Shown here one piece after another: positions 40,665-46,217 of a stretch of DNA of 64,000 nt. The translations under genes were made by a program, and so were the position numbers. The stretch is from Bacteroidota bacterium (GTDB lineage Bacteria > Bacteroidota > Bacteroidia > UKL13-3). How positions within the stretch are numbered: the stretch's first letter is position 1; each line of letters opens with the position of its first letter. Location of the stretch: the NCBI GenBank assembly GCA_947507965.1, contig CANNQU010000002.1, positions 1-64,000 on the forward strand, written 5' to 3'. A model generated the notes under the pieces. It had not been told where the DNA came from and did no database searches. It saw only the letters and a list, made by a program, of their open reading frames with translations.

Positions 40665-40745
40665 AAAAATCATTTTACTAGATATTCATAACCTCAAAGG
40701 GTTTCCCTTGTTGCCCTCTTCAAGAAAAATTTATCCCAATCTATT

Positions 40746-40803
40746 CTTAAGGGAATCTTAAGAATAGATTAACGTATTCTGAATTAAGAAAGGGGAATCT
40801 TTG
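40746..40803 (+). promoter_or_regulatory. Activator box and promoter of the DUF2231-RR-kinase unit
   Basis: CTTAAG-GGAAT-CTTAAG (40746-40762) is a direct repeat with an 11-bp period and fits the PmrA-box pattern YTTAAK-N5-YTTAAK exactly. It also forms the heart of a perfect 13-bp inverted repeat (40738-40770). Exactly 33 bases on is AATCTTTG (40796-40803), one base from TAnnTTTG, continuing as CAG. No -33 TTG lies at the normal place, as expected for an activator-dependent promoter. Compare 43362-43419. Confidence 0.62.
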
Positions 40804-40815
40804 CAGAAAAATAAT

Positions 40816-41283
40816 ATGATCTCTGCTACCCATATACACGCTATGATAATTCATTTTCCAATTGCACTACTTATGGTTGGATTTATTTTTGAGTTAATCA
40901 CCTTTCGATATAGAAAACTATTTTTCACTCAGGCTGCATTCTGTTTCCTTGTTTTGGGCACCCTTGGCACCATTGCATCGTATATTGCCGGAAAGGCAGC
41001 TGGAGATGGTATCGAAGAGGGGGCACTTGGAAAGGCCATCGAATTGCATCAACGAGCCGGCACGATTACGTTATGGCTATCTATTGCAACTACTTTTTTC
41101 TATAGTGTGTTATTTATCAGAAAGATTAATAACACGAAAATCAGGATGGTGGGCCTCATTTTGTTTGCTGTCGTACTTGGTTTTATTTCAAAAACAGGTT
41201 ATTTAGGAGGACAACTTGTTTTTAAGCATGGCGCAGGCGTTGAACTTGCACTACCCGACTTTTCCAACCCAGATGATAATTAG
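40816..41283 (+). CDS. DUF2231-like membrane protein
   Basis: A 155-aa protein with four hydrophobic helices. It begins MISATHIHAMIIHFPIALLMVGFIFE, the DUF2231 opening with HIH and IHFPIALL, and has a TGYLGGQLVFKHG segment near the end that is shared with the protein at 44222-44707. Histidines near helix ends suggest heme or metal binding, as inferred for the family. I prefer ATG at 40816 to the TTG at 40801, since the latter sits in the -7 box. The acidic end is NPDDN. Confidence 0.8.
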   Translation: MISATHIHAMIIHFPIALLMVGFIFELITFRYRKLFFTQAAFCFLVLGTLGTIASYIAGKAAGDGIEEGALGKAIELHQRAGTITLWLSIATTFFYSVLFIRKINNTKIRMVGLILFAVVLGFISKTGYLGGQLVFKHGAGVELALPDFSNPDDN

Positions 41284-41318
41284 GCTGGTAAACAAAAATA
41301 ATTATTTAATTTCCCGAC

Positions 41319-41996
41319 ATGAGAATATTCTTAGCAGAGGATGAAGCTGCCATTTCTGGCTTTTTAAAAGAAGGACTTGAAGAAGAAGGATTTGCTGTAG
41401 ATGTAGTAGGAAATGGACGTTTAGGACTCGAAATGGCATTGGCTAACATCAATGAATATGATCTGTATTTGCTCGACTGGATGCTGCCAGGAATAAGTGG
41501 GATTGAAATTTGCAGAAACATACGTAAGACCAATAAAACGGTACCTATTATTTTTTTGACGGCCAAAGATACGGTAGATGATACCGTTTTCGCACTAGAA
41601 ACCGGAGCGAACGATTTTCTGAAAAAGCCTTTCGCATTCGAAGAATTATTGGCTCGAATAAAAGTTCTCCTTCGAAATAAGACAGGAGACCAATCCATTT
41701 TTGTAACTGAAAATATTATATTAAATACCGCAGCTCATCAGGTTACCAAAAATGGTAAGCCGGTTGAGTTAACTCAAAAAGAATTTGCACTACTCGAATA
41801 CCTACTTCGCAATAAAGGCAACGTGTGTCGTCGCACTCGAATTATTGAAAAGATTTGGGATATTCATTTTGATAAAGATACTTCTGTTATTGATGTCTTT
41901 ATCAATTCACTTCGCAAAAAGCTTGATGATACGGGTGCCGAATCATTTATCCAAACGTTACGAGGGGTAGGATACCGAGTAAATAACAAGGCATGA
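41319..41996 (+). CDS. OmpR/PhoB-family response regulator
   Basis: A 225-aa DNA-binding regulator. The receiver has the acidic pair in LAEDEAA, the phospho-acceptor aspartate in YLLDWMLPGISG, FLTAKD and LKKPF with the conserved lysine. The C-terminal winged-helix domain (about 128-225) has LTQKEFALLEYLLRNKG and the recognition region TSVIDVFINSLRKKL and ends with LRGVGYRV. It overlaps its kinase gene by four bases. CTTAAG-type direct repeats upstream of both units of this locus are candidate binding sites. Which signal it answers is not known; copper/zinc (CusR/CzcR-like) or redox stress are possible. Confidence 0.94.
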   Translation: MRIFLAEDEAAISGFLKEGLEEEGFAVDVVGNGRLGLEMALANINEYDLYLLDWMLPGISGIEICRNIRKTNKTVPIIFLTAKDTVDDTVFALETGANDFLKKPFAFEELLARIKVLLRNKTGDQSIFVTENIILNTAAHQVTKNGKPVELTQKEFALLEYLLRNKGNVCRRTRIIEKIWDIHFDKDTSVIDVFINSLRKKLDDTGAESFIQTLRGVGYRVNNKA

Positions 41997-43360
41997 AATT
42001 TAGTTTTAAAAAGCGTATCGCCATCTTTAACACATCAGCCGTAGCGGTAATAACGGCATTGGTGTTCCTTGTTATTTATGCCGTTGTTTACGTCACCTCG
42101 TTCATTCATCTTGATCAAGATATAATACTCGAAAAAGAAGAGATCATTAACAACCTCGACTGGAAAGACGACCTGATTATCATTAACAAAATGCCGGAAT
42201 GGGAAGAGGCAGAACATAAAAAGGTAGAAATAAATCCAACGTTTATTCAAATAGTCGATCATAATGGCAAGCTCATTTTTAAATCGGCGAATCTAAAAAA
42301 ACAATACTTTCTATTTAATCCTTCGAATAAGAAGGAAAGCTATTTAAATACCTTACTTGAAGGACAGCGTCTTCGATTGGGACAATTCTCTATCCAAAAT
42401 GACGACGGAAAAGTAATAGGCCAATTGACGATCGGTGTTTCGCAAGAAGAATCTCATTATGTTTTAGATAATTTGCTCTTTACCCTTTGTATTGCATTTC
42501 CCGTTCTGCTATTCATACTGTACCTTGTTATTTACCTTACCGTATCAAAAGCCATTGCACCAGTACATCGCTTAATACATGCGGCAGCAGGCATTAAAGA
42601 TTCAACCATTGAGGCCCTTTTACCATTACCGGAAAATGAAGATGAAATATATCAACTGGCAAAGACGATCAATGAATTACTAAGCCGAATAGGAAATAGC
42701 ATTCAACAACAAAAACAATTTACGGCCGATGCCTCGCATGAAATAAGAACGCCACTTACGGCTATACGTGGAACCCTCGAGGTGCTGATAAGGAAAAAAA
42801 GAGAATCGGGCCAGTATGAGGAAAAAATAAGAGACGTTATCGAACAAACCGATAAACTAAACTTCCTGTTGGATCAATTGCTTCAACTTGCCCGACTTGA
42901 ATCAAGCCCTGTAAATAGGGCTGCCGTTAACTTACCAAATCTTGTTAAGGAGACCTTACAAAAATGGGACAAACAAATAACGGAAAGAGGAATACGAGTT
43001 GAATTAAATATAGAGGCCATTACGACCGTTTTTTCGGATCACTTTTTCTTATTGATGATGATCGATAATCTAATTACCAATGCCATAAAATACAGTGCTA
43101 TAAACGGTAAAATAGCCTGCCTTTGGAATGAAAAAGAGAAGACACTTTCGATAATCAATGACGGGCCTGGGATACGTAAAGAGCAGATTCCATTTTTGTA
43201 TGATCGCTTTTTTCGTACGGACCAATCGAGAAGCTCCGAGTTGCCGGGCAATGGCTTGGGTTTAGCCATCGTAAAGAAACTAGCCGACCTCCAGCAAATT
43301 GAAATTTCAGTCCAGAGCGATCCGGGTTGCACCATTTTCTCTTTGAAATTTATAGCTTAA
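41993..43360 (+). CDS. Sensor histidine kinase, partner of the OmpR-type regulator
   Basis: A 455-aa two-helix kinase. The first transmembrane span is at about 10-35, a periplasmic sensor of about 120 residues follows, then a second span (about 160-182), a HAMP linker, and the kinase core. H box: DASHEIRTPLTAIRGTLEV; N box: NLITNAIKYSA; G1 and F boxes: NDGPGI and YDRFFRTDQSR; G2: GNGLGLAI. This is the CusS/EnvZ-type organisation. The four-base overlap with the regulator gene marks them as a cognate pair. Confidence 0.94.
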   Translation: MKFSFKKRIAIFNTSAVAVITALVFLVIYAVVYVTSFIHLDQDIILEKEEIINNLDWKDDLIIINKMPEWEEAEHKKVEINPTFIQIVDHNGKLIFKSANLKKQYFLFNPSNKKESYLNTLLEGQRLRLGQFSIQNDDGKVIGQLTIGVSQEESHYVLDNLLFTLCIAFPVLLFILYLVIYLTVSKAIAPVHRLIHAAAGIKDSTIEALLPLPENEDEIYQLAKTINELLSRIGNSIQQQKQFTADASHEIRTPLTAIRGTLEVLIRKKRESGQYEEKIRDVIEQTDKLNFLLDQLLQLARLESSPVNRAAVNLPNLVKETLQKWDKQITERGIRVELNIEAITTVFSDHFFLLMMIDNLITNAIKYSAINGKIACLWNEKEKTLSIINDGPGIRKEQIPFLYDRFFRTDQSRSSELPGNGLGLAIVKKLADLQQIEISVQSDPGCTIFSLKFIA

Positions 43361-43361
43361 T

Positions 43362-43419
43362 CTTTAGCTTATTTTAAGGAATTACAAAGGCAACGCGAAG
43401 TTCATCGTTCGCATCTTTG
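43362..43419 (+). promoter_or_regulatory. Activator box and promoter of the rubrerythrin-cytochrome unit
   Basis: CTTTAG-CTTAT-TTTAAG (43362-43378) fits YTTAAK-N5-YTTAAK at 11 of 12 positions. Exactly 33 bases later is CATCTTTG (43412-43419), continuing CAG, the same -7 sequence as in the upstream unit. No -33 TTG is present. The leader to the ATG at 43454 would be about 30 bases. Confidence 0.58.
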
Positions 43420-43453
43420 CAGTATATACTATTTAATTCAAAAAAAATCCAAG

Positions 43454-44209
43454 ATGAGAAATAAACTCTTTATCCAATCCCTGTTGATGTTGTCGGGCAT
43501 TTTAATATTTACCTCATGCGGTAATACCGCTAATAATCCATCTCTGAAATCGCCGGTGCAAAGTAGTACGGATACTACCAGCTCAAAAACGAATCGAGAA
43601 AATGGGGAGCATGAAGCGAATGATAATACGAATAATGCGAGCACACCGGCCGATGCAAAAATCAAAACTACCGAAAATATACAGGCCGCATTTAAAGGTG
43701 AAACAACAGCCAGCGCCAAATATGCGGCCTACGCACAGAAGGCAGAAAAAGAAGGATATCATGAAATCGCGCTGCTTTTTAAAGCCGCATCAACGGCGGA
43801 GAATATTCATGCCAATAACCACAAGGCGGTTTTGCAGGAGTCAGGAGTTCAGGTAGCTCTTATAAAACCGGAGTTCACCGTAAAATCTACGAAAGAAAAC
43901 CTAGAAGATGCCATTGCTGGAGAAACATACGAAGCATCCATTATGTATCCTGACTTTCTAACCACTGCCAATATCGCAGGGGATCAATTGGCTCTCATAA
44001 GCCTGAACTATGCCTATAAAACAGAAAAGAAGCATAAAGTGATGTACGAAACAGCGCTCATTGCCTTGCAAAACAACAACGTCAAATCATTACCTTCCAT
44101 TTTCTATGTTTGCCCTACCTGTGGCAATACCTACGATACAAAAGCTCCGGCTCGTTGCGGTATCTCGATGACGTTTTCACAAAAATTCATATCTATTAAT
44201 TCTCTTTAA
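43454..44209 (+). CDS. Rubrerythrin-like lipoprotein with partial rubredoxin tail
   Basis: A 251-aa lipoprotein (lipobox FTSC near residue 22) with a low-complexity linker (about 25-75) and a four-helix ferritin-like di-iron domain: TTENIQAAFKGETTASAKYAAYAQKAEKEG then AENIHANNH, and a second pair around EDAIAGETYEAS. The C-terminus has a rubredoxin-like start FYVCPTCGNTYDTKAPARC, but the second CxxC is not complete (only RCG remains). Rubrerythrins reduce peroxide; being a lipoprotein puts this one outside the cytoplasm, which is unusual for the family. It is first in a unit with a cytochrome. Confidence 0.87.
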   Translation: MRNKLFIQSLLMLSGILIFTSCGNTANNPSLKSPVQSSTDTTSSKTNRENGEHEANDNTNNASTPADAKIKTTENIQAAFKGETTASAKYAAYAQKAEKEGYHEIALLFKAASTAENIHANNHKAVLQESGVQVALIKPEFTVKSTKENLEDAIAGETYEASIMYPDFLTTANIAGDQLALISLNYAYKTEKKHKVMYETALIALQNNNVKSLPSIFYVCPTCGNTYDTKAPARCGISMTFSQKFISINSL

Positions 44210-44221
44210 ACTTTAATCCCC

Positions 44222-44707
44222 ATGAACCAAGCACACTTTCATTTATTAATTACCCATTTACCGATATTCGGCTCTATCTTAGGTGGCCTTGTTTTAGGCT
44301 ATGGACTCTGGTCGAAAAGCCATCAAACAAAAATAGCAGCGTACAACCTTTTAATTATTTCCAGTATAGGGGCCGTCATTGCCTATTTAACCGGAGAAGC
44401 CGCCGAGGAGCGTGTAGAGAAAATTCAAGGTATTTCAAAAGACCTCATTAGTCAGCATGAAGATTTTGCAGTAATCGCCTTGGTTGGATTAATTATTTTA
44501 GGCGTTACCTCCATCATCGGACTTCTACTCATCTTAAAAAAATCAACTTTTTCAAGAAGCGTAGCCACAATCACCCTCATGCTTTCTTTAATAAGTTTTG
44601 GATTAATCGCTAGAACAGGGTATCTTGGTGGCCAAATCAGACATTCGGAAATGAATTCTTCCACTACAAATCCGGCACCCGGTGGGGAAGAACAAGACGA
44701 TGATTGA
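44222..44707 (+). CDS. DUF2231-like membrane protein, second copy
   Basis: A 161-aa protein with four hydrophobic helices. It resembles the protein at 40816-41283: an N-terminal HFHLLITHLPIFGS histidine segment replaces HIHAMIIHFPIALL, and ARTGYLGGQIRHSE aligns with SKTGYLGGQLVFKH. The C-terminus is acidic (GGEEQDDD). It starts 12 bases after the rubrerythrin gene. A role as membrane-bound heme or quinone-linked electron carrier is inferred from the locus, not shown. Confidence 0.75.
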   Translation: MNQAHFHLLITHLPIFGSILGGLVLGYGLWSKSHQTKIAAYNLLIISSIGAVIAYLTGEAAEERVEKIQGISKDLISQHEDFAVIALVGLIILGVTSIIGLLLILKKSTFSRSVATITLMLSLISFGLIARTGYLGGQIRHSEMNSSTTNPAPGGEEQDDD

Positions 44708-44718
44708 TTTTATTCATC

Positions 44719-45291
44719 ATGAATAAACCACTCCTGATAAAATATGTATTTCCCTTTATTCAGTGGTATGCCTTAATGATTTTTATCACCATTGCCATTG
44801 ACTATTTTCTTCATCGCTATCATTTAATTTATATTGGTCGCTATTTAGGTTTAATAGGTACCGTCGTTATCCTAATTTCTTTTATTTATTCGTTACGTAA
44901 AAGAAAAATTATTAAAACCGGTTCACCCAAAAAATTATTACTCCTACACGAGTATTTATCTTGGATTGGTGCAGTGTTACTTTTGGTGCATGCCGGCATT
45001 CATTTCAATGCAATATTACCTTGGCTAGCTATAGTTACCTTACTAATAGCAGTAGCCAGTGGGTTGGTTGGGAAATTTCTTTTGAAGAAATCAAATGAAT
45101 TACTAAAAGTAAAAAGACAACAATTACTTGATACGGGTATGAGTAAAGAAGAAACGGATAAAACACTATTCTTCGATTCGATAACCGTTGACGTAATGAA
45201 AAACTGGAGAGTTGTTCACTTACCCATTACATTTCTTTTGGGTGTATTGTCTTTGCTGCATATCATCACCATCATAATGTATAGCAAATGA
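44719..45291 (+). CDS. Membrane protein, possible b-type cytochrome
   Basis: A 190-aa protein with about five membrane helices and several histidines placed at helix positions (LLHEYLSWIG, LVHAGIHFNA, RVVHLPITFL, LLHIITII). This arrangement resembles di-heme cytochrome b membrane subunits that pass electrons from quinol across the membrane, but there is no exact family match from memory. The start at 44719 is preferred to the TTG at 44704, which overlaps the previous gene. It precedes the decaheme cytochrome by a four-base overlap, so the two are likely partners. Confidence 0.68.
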   Translation: MNKPLLIKYVFPFIQWYALMIFITIAIDYFLHRYHLIYIGRYLGLIGTVVILISFIYSLRKRKIIKTGSPKKLLLLHEYLSWIGAVLLLVHAGIHFNAILPWLAIVTLLIAVASGLVGKFLLKKSNELLKVKRQQLLDTGMSKEETDKTLFFDSITVDVMKNWRVVHLPITFLLGVLSLLHIITIIMYSK

Positions 45292-46217
45292 AGAAAATAA
45301 TGGTTTCCGGAATTATTATTAGCTGTATATGGCTCATGTATGCGTATCCTGATGTGATGATCAATCCGGGCAAGTTAGTTGAAGGCCATCAGAAAATACA
45401 TAACCAATGTCAATCCTGTCATACTCCATTTTGGGGAGTCGTAAACAGCTCGTGTATTTCTTGCCATAAATTATCAGAAATTGGAAAAGACACCTTCCCG
45501 AATAGAGATACAAGTGCCATTAAAAGCAAAATTTTATTTCACCAGAGTCTCTCCAATCAAAGCTGTACTTCCTGTCATACAGATCATAAAGGCCTAAATC
45601 CAGAGCGAACGATCTCCCAATTTAAACATGAATTATTAGCTCAAACGATGTTAAACCAATGCAATAGCTGCCATGGAAAGCCATCGGATAAGATACACCT
45701 ACAAATTTCGTCTTCTTGTAACCGTTGCCATACGACGCAAGGATGGAAATCGCAAGTTAGATTTAATCATGAAATGATTGAAGGGGTGGACCAGACGAGT
45801 TGTACTACCTGTCATCAAAAACCAAATGATTCTTATCACCTCCTATTAAAGGATAACTGTAGTAAATGTCACCGTACAAACCAGTGGGTTCCCTCATCCT
45901 TCGACCACTCTTCGTATTTTGTGCTCGACCAAAATCATAACGCCAAATGTAGCACCTGCCATACCACTGCTAGTTTTGCCTCTTACACCTGCTATGGTTG
46001 TCACGAACATTCTCAAAACAGCATACTGGAAGAGCATGCTGAACATCGCATTAACAATCTTGAAAACTGTGTAGCATGTCATAAGAGTGGCAATGAGCAT
46101 GATATCAAAAGTAATGGAAACTCAAGTAAAGAATTAAATCAACAAGATTTAAAGAATACAAAAGATTATATGAACAGGAAGGAAAGAGAGGGCAAGAAAA
46201 ATGATGACGATGATTGA
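45288..46217 (+). CDS. Decaheme cytochrome c
   Basis: A 309-aa exported protein with ten CxxCH heme-binding motifs: CQSCH, CISCH, CTSCH, CNSCH, CNRCH, CTTCH, CSKCH, CSTCH, CYGCH and CVACH. Additional histidines spaced between them can act as distal ligands, as in cytochrome c3/c7-type proteins. An N-terminal hydrophobic segment (about 4-20) acts as signal or anchor. The C-terminal ~45 residues carry no cysteine and end in KKNDDDD. Ten hemes make a wire for moving electrons through the periplasm. It overlaps the b-type-like gene by four bases and ends the unit. Confidence 0.93.
   Translation: MKKIMVSGIIISCIWLMYAYPDVMINPGKLVEGHQKIHNQCQSCHTPFWGVVNSSCISCHKLSEIGKDTFPNRDTSAIKSKILFHQSLSNQSCTSCHTDHKGLNPERTISQFKHELLAQTMLNQCNSCHGKPSDKIHLQISSSCNRCHTTQGWKSQVRFNHEMIEGVDQTSCTTCHQKPNDSYHLLLKDNCSKCHRTNQWVPSSFDHSSYFVLDQNHNAKCSTCHTTASFASYTCYGCHEHSQNSILEEHAEHRINNLENCVACHKSGNEHDIKSNGNSSKELNQQDLKNTKDYMNRKEREGKKNDDDD

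Follow-up and report, generated by a model that had tools for sequence, protein, structure and literature searches.

The stretch analyzed here (the window) comprises positions 1 to 64,000 of contig CANNQU010000002.1 from a Bacteroidota bacterium of the UKL13-3 lineage (assembly GCA_947507965.1), and the element under study is a repeat array found at two promoters, each of which precedes a unit of genes on the forward strand. The first unit encodes a DUF2231 membrane protein (40816-41283, ATG at 40816; Pfam PF09990 and alignment), an OmpR/PhoB-type response regulator (41319-41996), which we propose as the activator of both promoters, and a sensor histidine kinase (41993-43360; Pfam HisKA and HATPase_c). 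The second unit encodes a rubrerythrin whose N-terminus looks lipoprotein-like by eye (43454-44209; PF02915), a second DUF2231-like membrane protein (44222-44707; PF09990 at 26.2 bits, slightly below the cut-off of 26.4), a membrane protein with six histidines invariant in an alignment of eight sequences (44719-45291) and a multihaem c-type cytochrome, assigned by Pfam, with ten CxxCH motifs by count (45288-46217).

A first-pass annotation of this DNA had described a two-part box upstream of each unit, both boxes lying 33 bp from matching -7 elements. Direct reading of the forward strand confirmed this arrangement exactly. Promoter 1 carries CTTAAG-N5-CTTAAG at 40746-40762 (half-sites 40746-40751 and 40757-40762), a spacer at 40763-40795 and the -7 element AATCTTTG at 40796-40803, followed by CAG, which puts the predicted transcription start near 40808. 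Promoter 2, whose array starts one base past the kinase stop codon, carries CTTTAG-N5-TTTAAG at 43362-43378 (half-sites 43362-43367 and 43373-43378), a spacer at 43379-43411 and the -7 element CATCTTTG at 43412-43419, again followed by CAG, with a predicted start near 43424. After the 33-bp spacer, the sequence reads AATCTTTGCAG at one promoter and CATCTTTGCAG at the other. The -7 consensus TAnnTTTG and its position are taken from PMC7366714 and PMC9723704; every fixed letter of the consensus agrees with AATCTTTG and CATCTTTG except the first T. TTG is absent from both 33-bp spacers, so neither promoter has a -33 TTG/TTTG element, in agreement with the earlier description.

The direct repeats have an 11-bp period at both promoters, as had been reported and as fits an OmpR/PhoB-type operator next to the regulator's own promoter, and further repeats continue in the same register. 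Comparison with genomes G043 and G047, whose regulators are 62% and 56% identical to that of the window, revealed that both arrays consist of four 11-bp CTTAAG-like repeats, with TTTG 54 bp from the array start. The weaker repeats 3 and 4 are ATTAAC (40768-40773) and CTGAAT (40779-40784) at promoter 1, and ACAAAG (43384-43389) and GCGAAG (43395-43400) at promoter 2. When the -7 element is placed at -12 to -5 (PMC9723704), repeats 1-2 extend from about -62 to -46, and repeats 3-4, from about -40 to -24, occupy the -33 region. Judged by this register, the two-part boxes are the left half of a larger four-repeat array that reaches the -33 region. The description as a YTTAAK-N5-YTTAAK box holds strictly for box 1; box 2 deviates in its first half-site (CTTTAG), and the element is an array of four repeats instead of a single two-part box.

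Both the receiver domain (PF00072) and the winged-helix Trans_reg_C domain (PF00486) of the regulator scored above their cut-offs, which identifies it as OmpR/PhoB-type. Its best curated model is TIGR01387 (cztR_silR_copR), at 223.3 bits against a cut-off of 279.2, and the kinase scored 201.1 bits with TIGR01386 (cut-off 292.55). By its curated match, the regulator thus appears closest to the heavy-metal CusR/CopR type, though under the curated cut-off. By its curated model score, an identity as PmrA/BasR is rejected (156.2 bits against a PmrA model cut-off of 330). The PmrA-like label given in the first pass is therefore apt for the box, which does resemble the PmrA box, but not for the protein. 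The recognition-helix region, VIDV-IN-LRKKL, is near-identical throughout the regulator relatives described below.

The complete architecture is rare in the genome of the window. The pattern YTTWAK-N5-YTTWAK-N30-36-ATCTTTG occurs twice in 3,356,716 bases, at precisely these promoters, and its reversed control does not occur. Neither a looser box followed by N30-45 and TTTG (15 matches genome-wide versus 29 for the reversed control) nor the YTTWAG pair alone (16 versus 28) is enriched in this genome. To the question whether the motif is common at random sites, the answer is that the box is rare only when joined with this distance and the -7 element, and not by itself. We also scanned the window with a promoter model, R1, built from 49 promoters of other species, none from the window or from the same-genus genome G002. 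The two promoters scored 34.9 and 26.3 bits, followed by 15.2 (box 1 on the opposite strand) and 6.9. With a matrix trained on other lineages, none of 300 dinucleotide shuffles matched the score of either promoter, and three other promoter regions of the window, used as controls, yielded no site. A wider regulon in this genome was considered and rejected, the looser patterns being without excess and R1 giving only these two matches at E <= 1e-4; six further matches fall at E <= 1, none of which is among the matches listed, which reach 0.235.

The regulator system is patchily distributed within the genus: a regulator at E <= 1e-40 was found in one of four other same-genus genomes, G002 (83% identity), and in none of G001, G003 and G004. 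G002 retains both promoter arrays, including the repeats and the distance to the -7 element, with ACAAAG and CAGAAG at the repeat 3-4 positions of its promoter 2. Both promoters of the window and both of G002 beat 300 of 300 shuffles in a test for an array with TTTG at 53 or 54 bp, again with the matrix from other lineages. The boxes and their spacing are thus kept in the sole same-genus carrier of the regulator, and also in many distant ones, as follows.

Regulator relatives were taken as the best 80 matches listed, and all counts over 80 loci refer to these; two loci (L092 and L111) are too short upstream, so that upstream boxes were counted in 78. Cultured bacteria that carry the regulator include Flavobacterium frigoris, Halpernia frigidisoli and Maribacter polysiphoniae. 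In the 700 bp before the regulator, a strict box is present in 4 of 6 loci with at least 70% identity and in 23 of 32 with 60-69% (27/38 at 60% or more); the reversed pattern was found in 0 of 78. TTTG follows at +53 in 11 boxes and at +54 in 9, and any other offset occurs at most three times. Strict boxes elsewhere in the loci number 93, versus 13 for the reversed pattern. Beyond the regulator-upstream sites there are 106 box matches, 102 of them intergenic and 4 inside reading frames, and 33 have TTTG at +53 or +54 (in both of these counts, palindromic boxes were scored on both strands). The 49 promoters behind R1 were selected on YTTWAG pairs with TTTG at 53 or 54, so those columns are invariant by construction and the others constitute the evidence; 4 of 53 candidates, from distant loci (one each from L103 and L107, two from L127), were excluded. 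Among the informative columns, the fifth letter is A in 92% of promoters in repeat 3 and 94% in repeat 4, the linker ahead of repeat 2 ends in A (92%) followed by T (88%), and the A of TAnnTTTG is present in 98%.

Ten loci among the 80 carry the label Chlorobiaceae or Chlorobaculum. Six of these (L080, L081, L082, L084, L085 and L089) have a best array score of at least 17 and no TTTG at 53 or 54; at +50, where TAnnTTTG starts in the +54 promoters, they have TAnnTT (TACATT, TACCTT or TATCTT). One metagenome-assembled contig (L107) labelled Klebsiella pneumoniae holds a Bacteroidota-type regulator, a CTTAAG box and TTTG at +53; the label is probably a binning error.

We then applied R1 to whole genomes of the order and the class under stricter filters; one of the scans behind the class comparison scored ten candidates per genome. 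Across 64 genomes of the order, the top four matches were promoter 1 of the window genome (G000; 5.0e-8), promoter 1 of G002 (3.8e-7) and the second promoters of both (2.7e-5 and 3.4e-5, respectively); G000 and G002 are the only genomes of the 64 with a regulator at E <= 1e-68. Of 295 genomes of the class, 14 carry the regulator, the window's own being one of them, and 12 of these gave a match at E <= 1e-4, compared with 3 of the 281 that lack it; the Fisher value of this comparison is nominal because the genomes are related. Most of these matches are no more than about 4 kb away from the regulator gene, and none of the nine hit loci checked (L199-L207) holds an exact training core.

Below a match in G064, discussed later, the next matches in the order came from G009, G081, G030, G077 and, further down, G021, where the array sits between histidine kinase and outer-membrane efflux genes (gene families were confirmed for G009, and the other four were assigned by gene order). 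These arrays likely represent a paralogous efflux regulon, and because of where they sit, the array type is probably common to a wider regulator group. The five arrays (L190-L193 and L196) mix 11- and 12-bp periods.

In many relatives, arrays precede the regulator unit or follow the kinase gene, ahead of rubrerythrin/DUF2231 genes or of a CusA-type pump. The order DUF2231-regulator-kinase-rubrerythrin recurs in 12 of the 80 loci (L049-L053, L055-L058, L062, L063 and L077), and L054 has the gene order of the window minus the first DUF2231 gene. In the shuffle test, 9 of 13 first promoters and 8 of 13 second promoters of these gene-order relatives beat 300 of 300 shuffles. In 34 of 80 loci the regulator has a CusA-like pump gene downstream of it, encoded on the same strand, and in Maribacter polysiphoniae (L060) both kinds of target are present, in the order regulator-kinase, array, DUF2231-rubrerythrin, array, pump. 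The pump at the G043 locus (L034, 1861-6219) is a single chain of 1452 aa that joins ACR_tran to a C-terminal outer-membrane efflux (OEP) domain. In ten relatives (L059, L060, L061, L065-L070 and L106), the start deduced from the -7 element coincides with the A of the regulator ATG. By this arithmetic, the regulator mRNA of these ten is predicted to be leaderless and autoregulated; 5.5% of Flavobacterium psychrophilum mRNAs are leaderless (PMC9723704).

Genes related to those for the window's membrane protein and cytochrome come after the kinase in four loci (L085, L088, L089 and L115), of which only L085 and L089 showed an upstream array. The membrane protein itself (44719-45291) has no significant Pfam match of its own, and Ferric_reduct was matched in one of eight relatives and not in the window's own protein. 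Fold searches with this protein (mean pLDDT 70.0) and with DUF2231 (83.6) returned nothing at E <= 0.001. Since those searches gave no match, it is the conserved histidines and the single Ferric_reduct match that suggest a haem-b protein.

From the observed sequence, spacing, conservation, co-occurrence with the regulator gene and gene content, we infer binding and activation, and hold with fairly high confidence that the regulator at 41319-41996 activates both promoters. Phosphorylated regulator dimers would bind head to tail along the four repeats, with repeats 1-2 as the strong site and the weaker repeats 3-4 covering the -33 position; in the simplest reading, two head-to-tail dimers substitute for the -33 contact. 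A -7 element without its -33 partner would make transcription by the housekeeping sigma factor dependent on the regulator. The DUF2231-regulator-kinase unit would thereby regulate itself positively, and the regulator would induce the rubrerythrin-DUF2231-membrane protein-multihaem cytochrome unit, which may carry electrons to a peroxide-reducing rubrerythrin. The missing -33 element is weak evidence by itself, because a -33 motif was found in Bacteroides fragilis and could not be identified in Flavobacterium johnsoniae (PMC7366714). As for the signal, metal or oxidant stress in the envelope is suggested by the heavy-metal type of the regulator-kinase pair, by the pump gene of relatives and by the rubrerythrin-cytochrome unit.

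Several results weigh against this activation model. Below 60% regulator identity, a strict upstream box is found in only 4 of 23 loci at 55-59% and 3 of 17 lower (7/40), and 33 of the 80 loci have no box in the two stretches looked at. The shuffle test was missed by the first promoters of L051, L062, L063 and L077 and by the second promoters of L052, L053, L058, L062 and L077; L053 has an array with TTTG at +54 farther upstream, and in L051, L052, L058, L062 and L077 the boxes present lack TTTG at 53 or 54. R1 misses the regulator-bearing G116 and G302, and promoter 2 of the window (2.7e-5) is barely ahead of a match in the regulator-free G064 (7.4e-5; L189, no regulator gene within the 3-kb locus). 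The bare box-plus-TTTG pattern does not discriminate, as 35 of 64 genomes in the order, and 135 of 295 in the class, contain it at least once. The last point concerns the cytochrome. In the window, the membrane protein and cytochrome genes follow rubrerythrin; in G002, they lie upstream of DUF2231-regulator-kinase, beside prfB (L033, 11168-12657), and have no box (best score -14.0, attained by 13 of 300 shuffles). Because these genes sit elsewhere without a box, the target kept in G002 is the rubrerythrin-DUF2231 pair. The original proposal that the regulator activates its own unit and the cytochrome unit is thus supported by the kept arrays and by co-occurrence, except that the cytochrome genes do not stay with the array in G002. 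Two of the three conditions named as refuting it, boxes not conserved in relatives and a motif common at random, were checked, and neither refuted it.

The arrays might instead be bound by another OmpR/PhoB-type regulator, or be shared by several paralogues. Similar arrays at the kinase and efflux genes of G009, G081, G030, G077 and G021, genomes whose top regulator matches do not reach 1e-68, speak for this, as does the one common recognition sequence of HprR and CusR in Escherichia coli (PMC9302797). We nevertheless consider it unlikely, given how R1 matches at E <= 1e-4 concentrate in regulator carriers and mostly near the regulator gene. A further alternative is that the encoded regulator binds the arrays but chiefly represses, or has opposite effects at the two promoters. 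A protein bound to repeats 3-4, which overlap the -33 region, could indeed obstruct polymerase; however, the strong repeats occupy about -62 to -46, the -7 spacing is kept to one base pair and there is no -33 TTG, a combination expected of activator-dependent PhoB/PmrA-type promoters, and we judge repression to be improbable. Box 1 lies within a 14-bp perfect inverted repeat with a 5-nt centre (window 40735-40773), so it could be read as a palindrome or hairpin (a terminator or an inverted-repeat operator) whose resemblance to box 2 is accidental. Relatives lack this inverted repeat: the arms measure 0 bp at box 2 and only the 6 bp inherent in CTTAAG at promoter 1 of G002, and of 34 plus-strand CTTAAG-N5-CTTAAG boxes in the 80 loci, 18 have just 6-bp arms and none has arms above 11. 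What relatives keep is the direct-repeat spacing. The hairpin or palindromic-operator reading was rejected, as its arms are not common to relatives, and we give it almost no credence. Activation by the encoded regulator remains the preferred explanation.

On a wider scale, we tentatively propose, as a possibility somewhat short of a likely one, a promoter code across Bacteroidota and related phyla, in which a CusR-like two-component system would activate promoters lacking a -33 element by way of four 11-bp CTTAAG-like repeats, set at a single exact spacing from the -7 element. Such a code would couple metal efflux to a so far undescribed module for redox defence of the envelope (lipoprotein rubrerythrin, DUF2231, haem-b-like membrane protein and decahaem cytochrome), and the regulator mRNA would start at its AUG in several species. 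The first-pass annotation knew of no such box in this phylum, and we likewise found none in the open-access literature, from which subscription papers are largely absent; within that scope, the four-repeat array, its -7 phase, the regulator group and the targets were not found, and the available part of a paper on Bizionia copper genes (PMC11213822) has no such motif. Few binding motifs seem to have been described for two-component regulators of Bacteroidota. With four repeats and a fixed -7 phase, the array is precise enough for regulon annotation across many genomes, and it offers a case for studying how an activator cooperates with a sigma factor recognizing TAnnTTTG where no -33 element is present. 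It also ties genes of obscure role (DUF2231, lipoprotein rubrerythrin and decahaem cytochrome) to a metal-type stress system.

The Pho box of PhoB consists of tandem 11-bp repeats that stand in for a -35 element. The arrays described here are alike in their tandem 11-bp repeats but differ in their letters and have the Bacteroidota -7 element as core promoter. The operator is of a known kind, because the PmrA (BasR) box, YTTAAK-N5-YTTAAK, to which an OmpR/PhoB-type regulator binds head to tail, has the same half-site and 5-bp gap (PMC3973317). Unlike the PmrA box, the arrays have up to four repeats in fixed phase to the -7 element, and their targets are DUF2231, rubrerythrin, cytochrome or efflux genes. 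The likeness to CusR, CopR, CzcR and HprR lies in the best curated matches of regulator and kinase and in the efflux-pump neighbours of the relatives. The CusR/HprR box of E. coli is a palindrome, CATTACAAAATTGTAATG (PMC9302797), unlike the CTTAAG repeat, and CATTACAAAATTGTAATG is absent from both window promoters. In E. coli, CusSR and HprSR control an envelope repair gene set, the periplasmic msrPQ (PMC9302797), to which the system described here may be likened, as a working parallel and not a demonstration.

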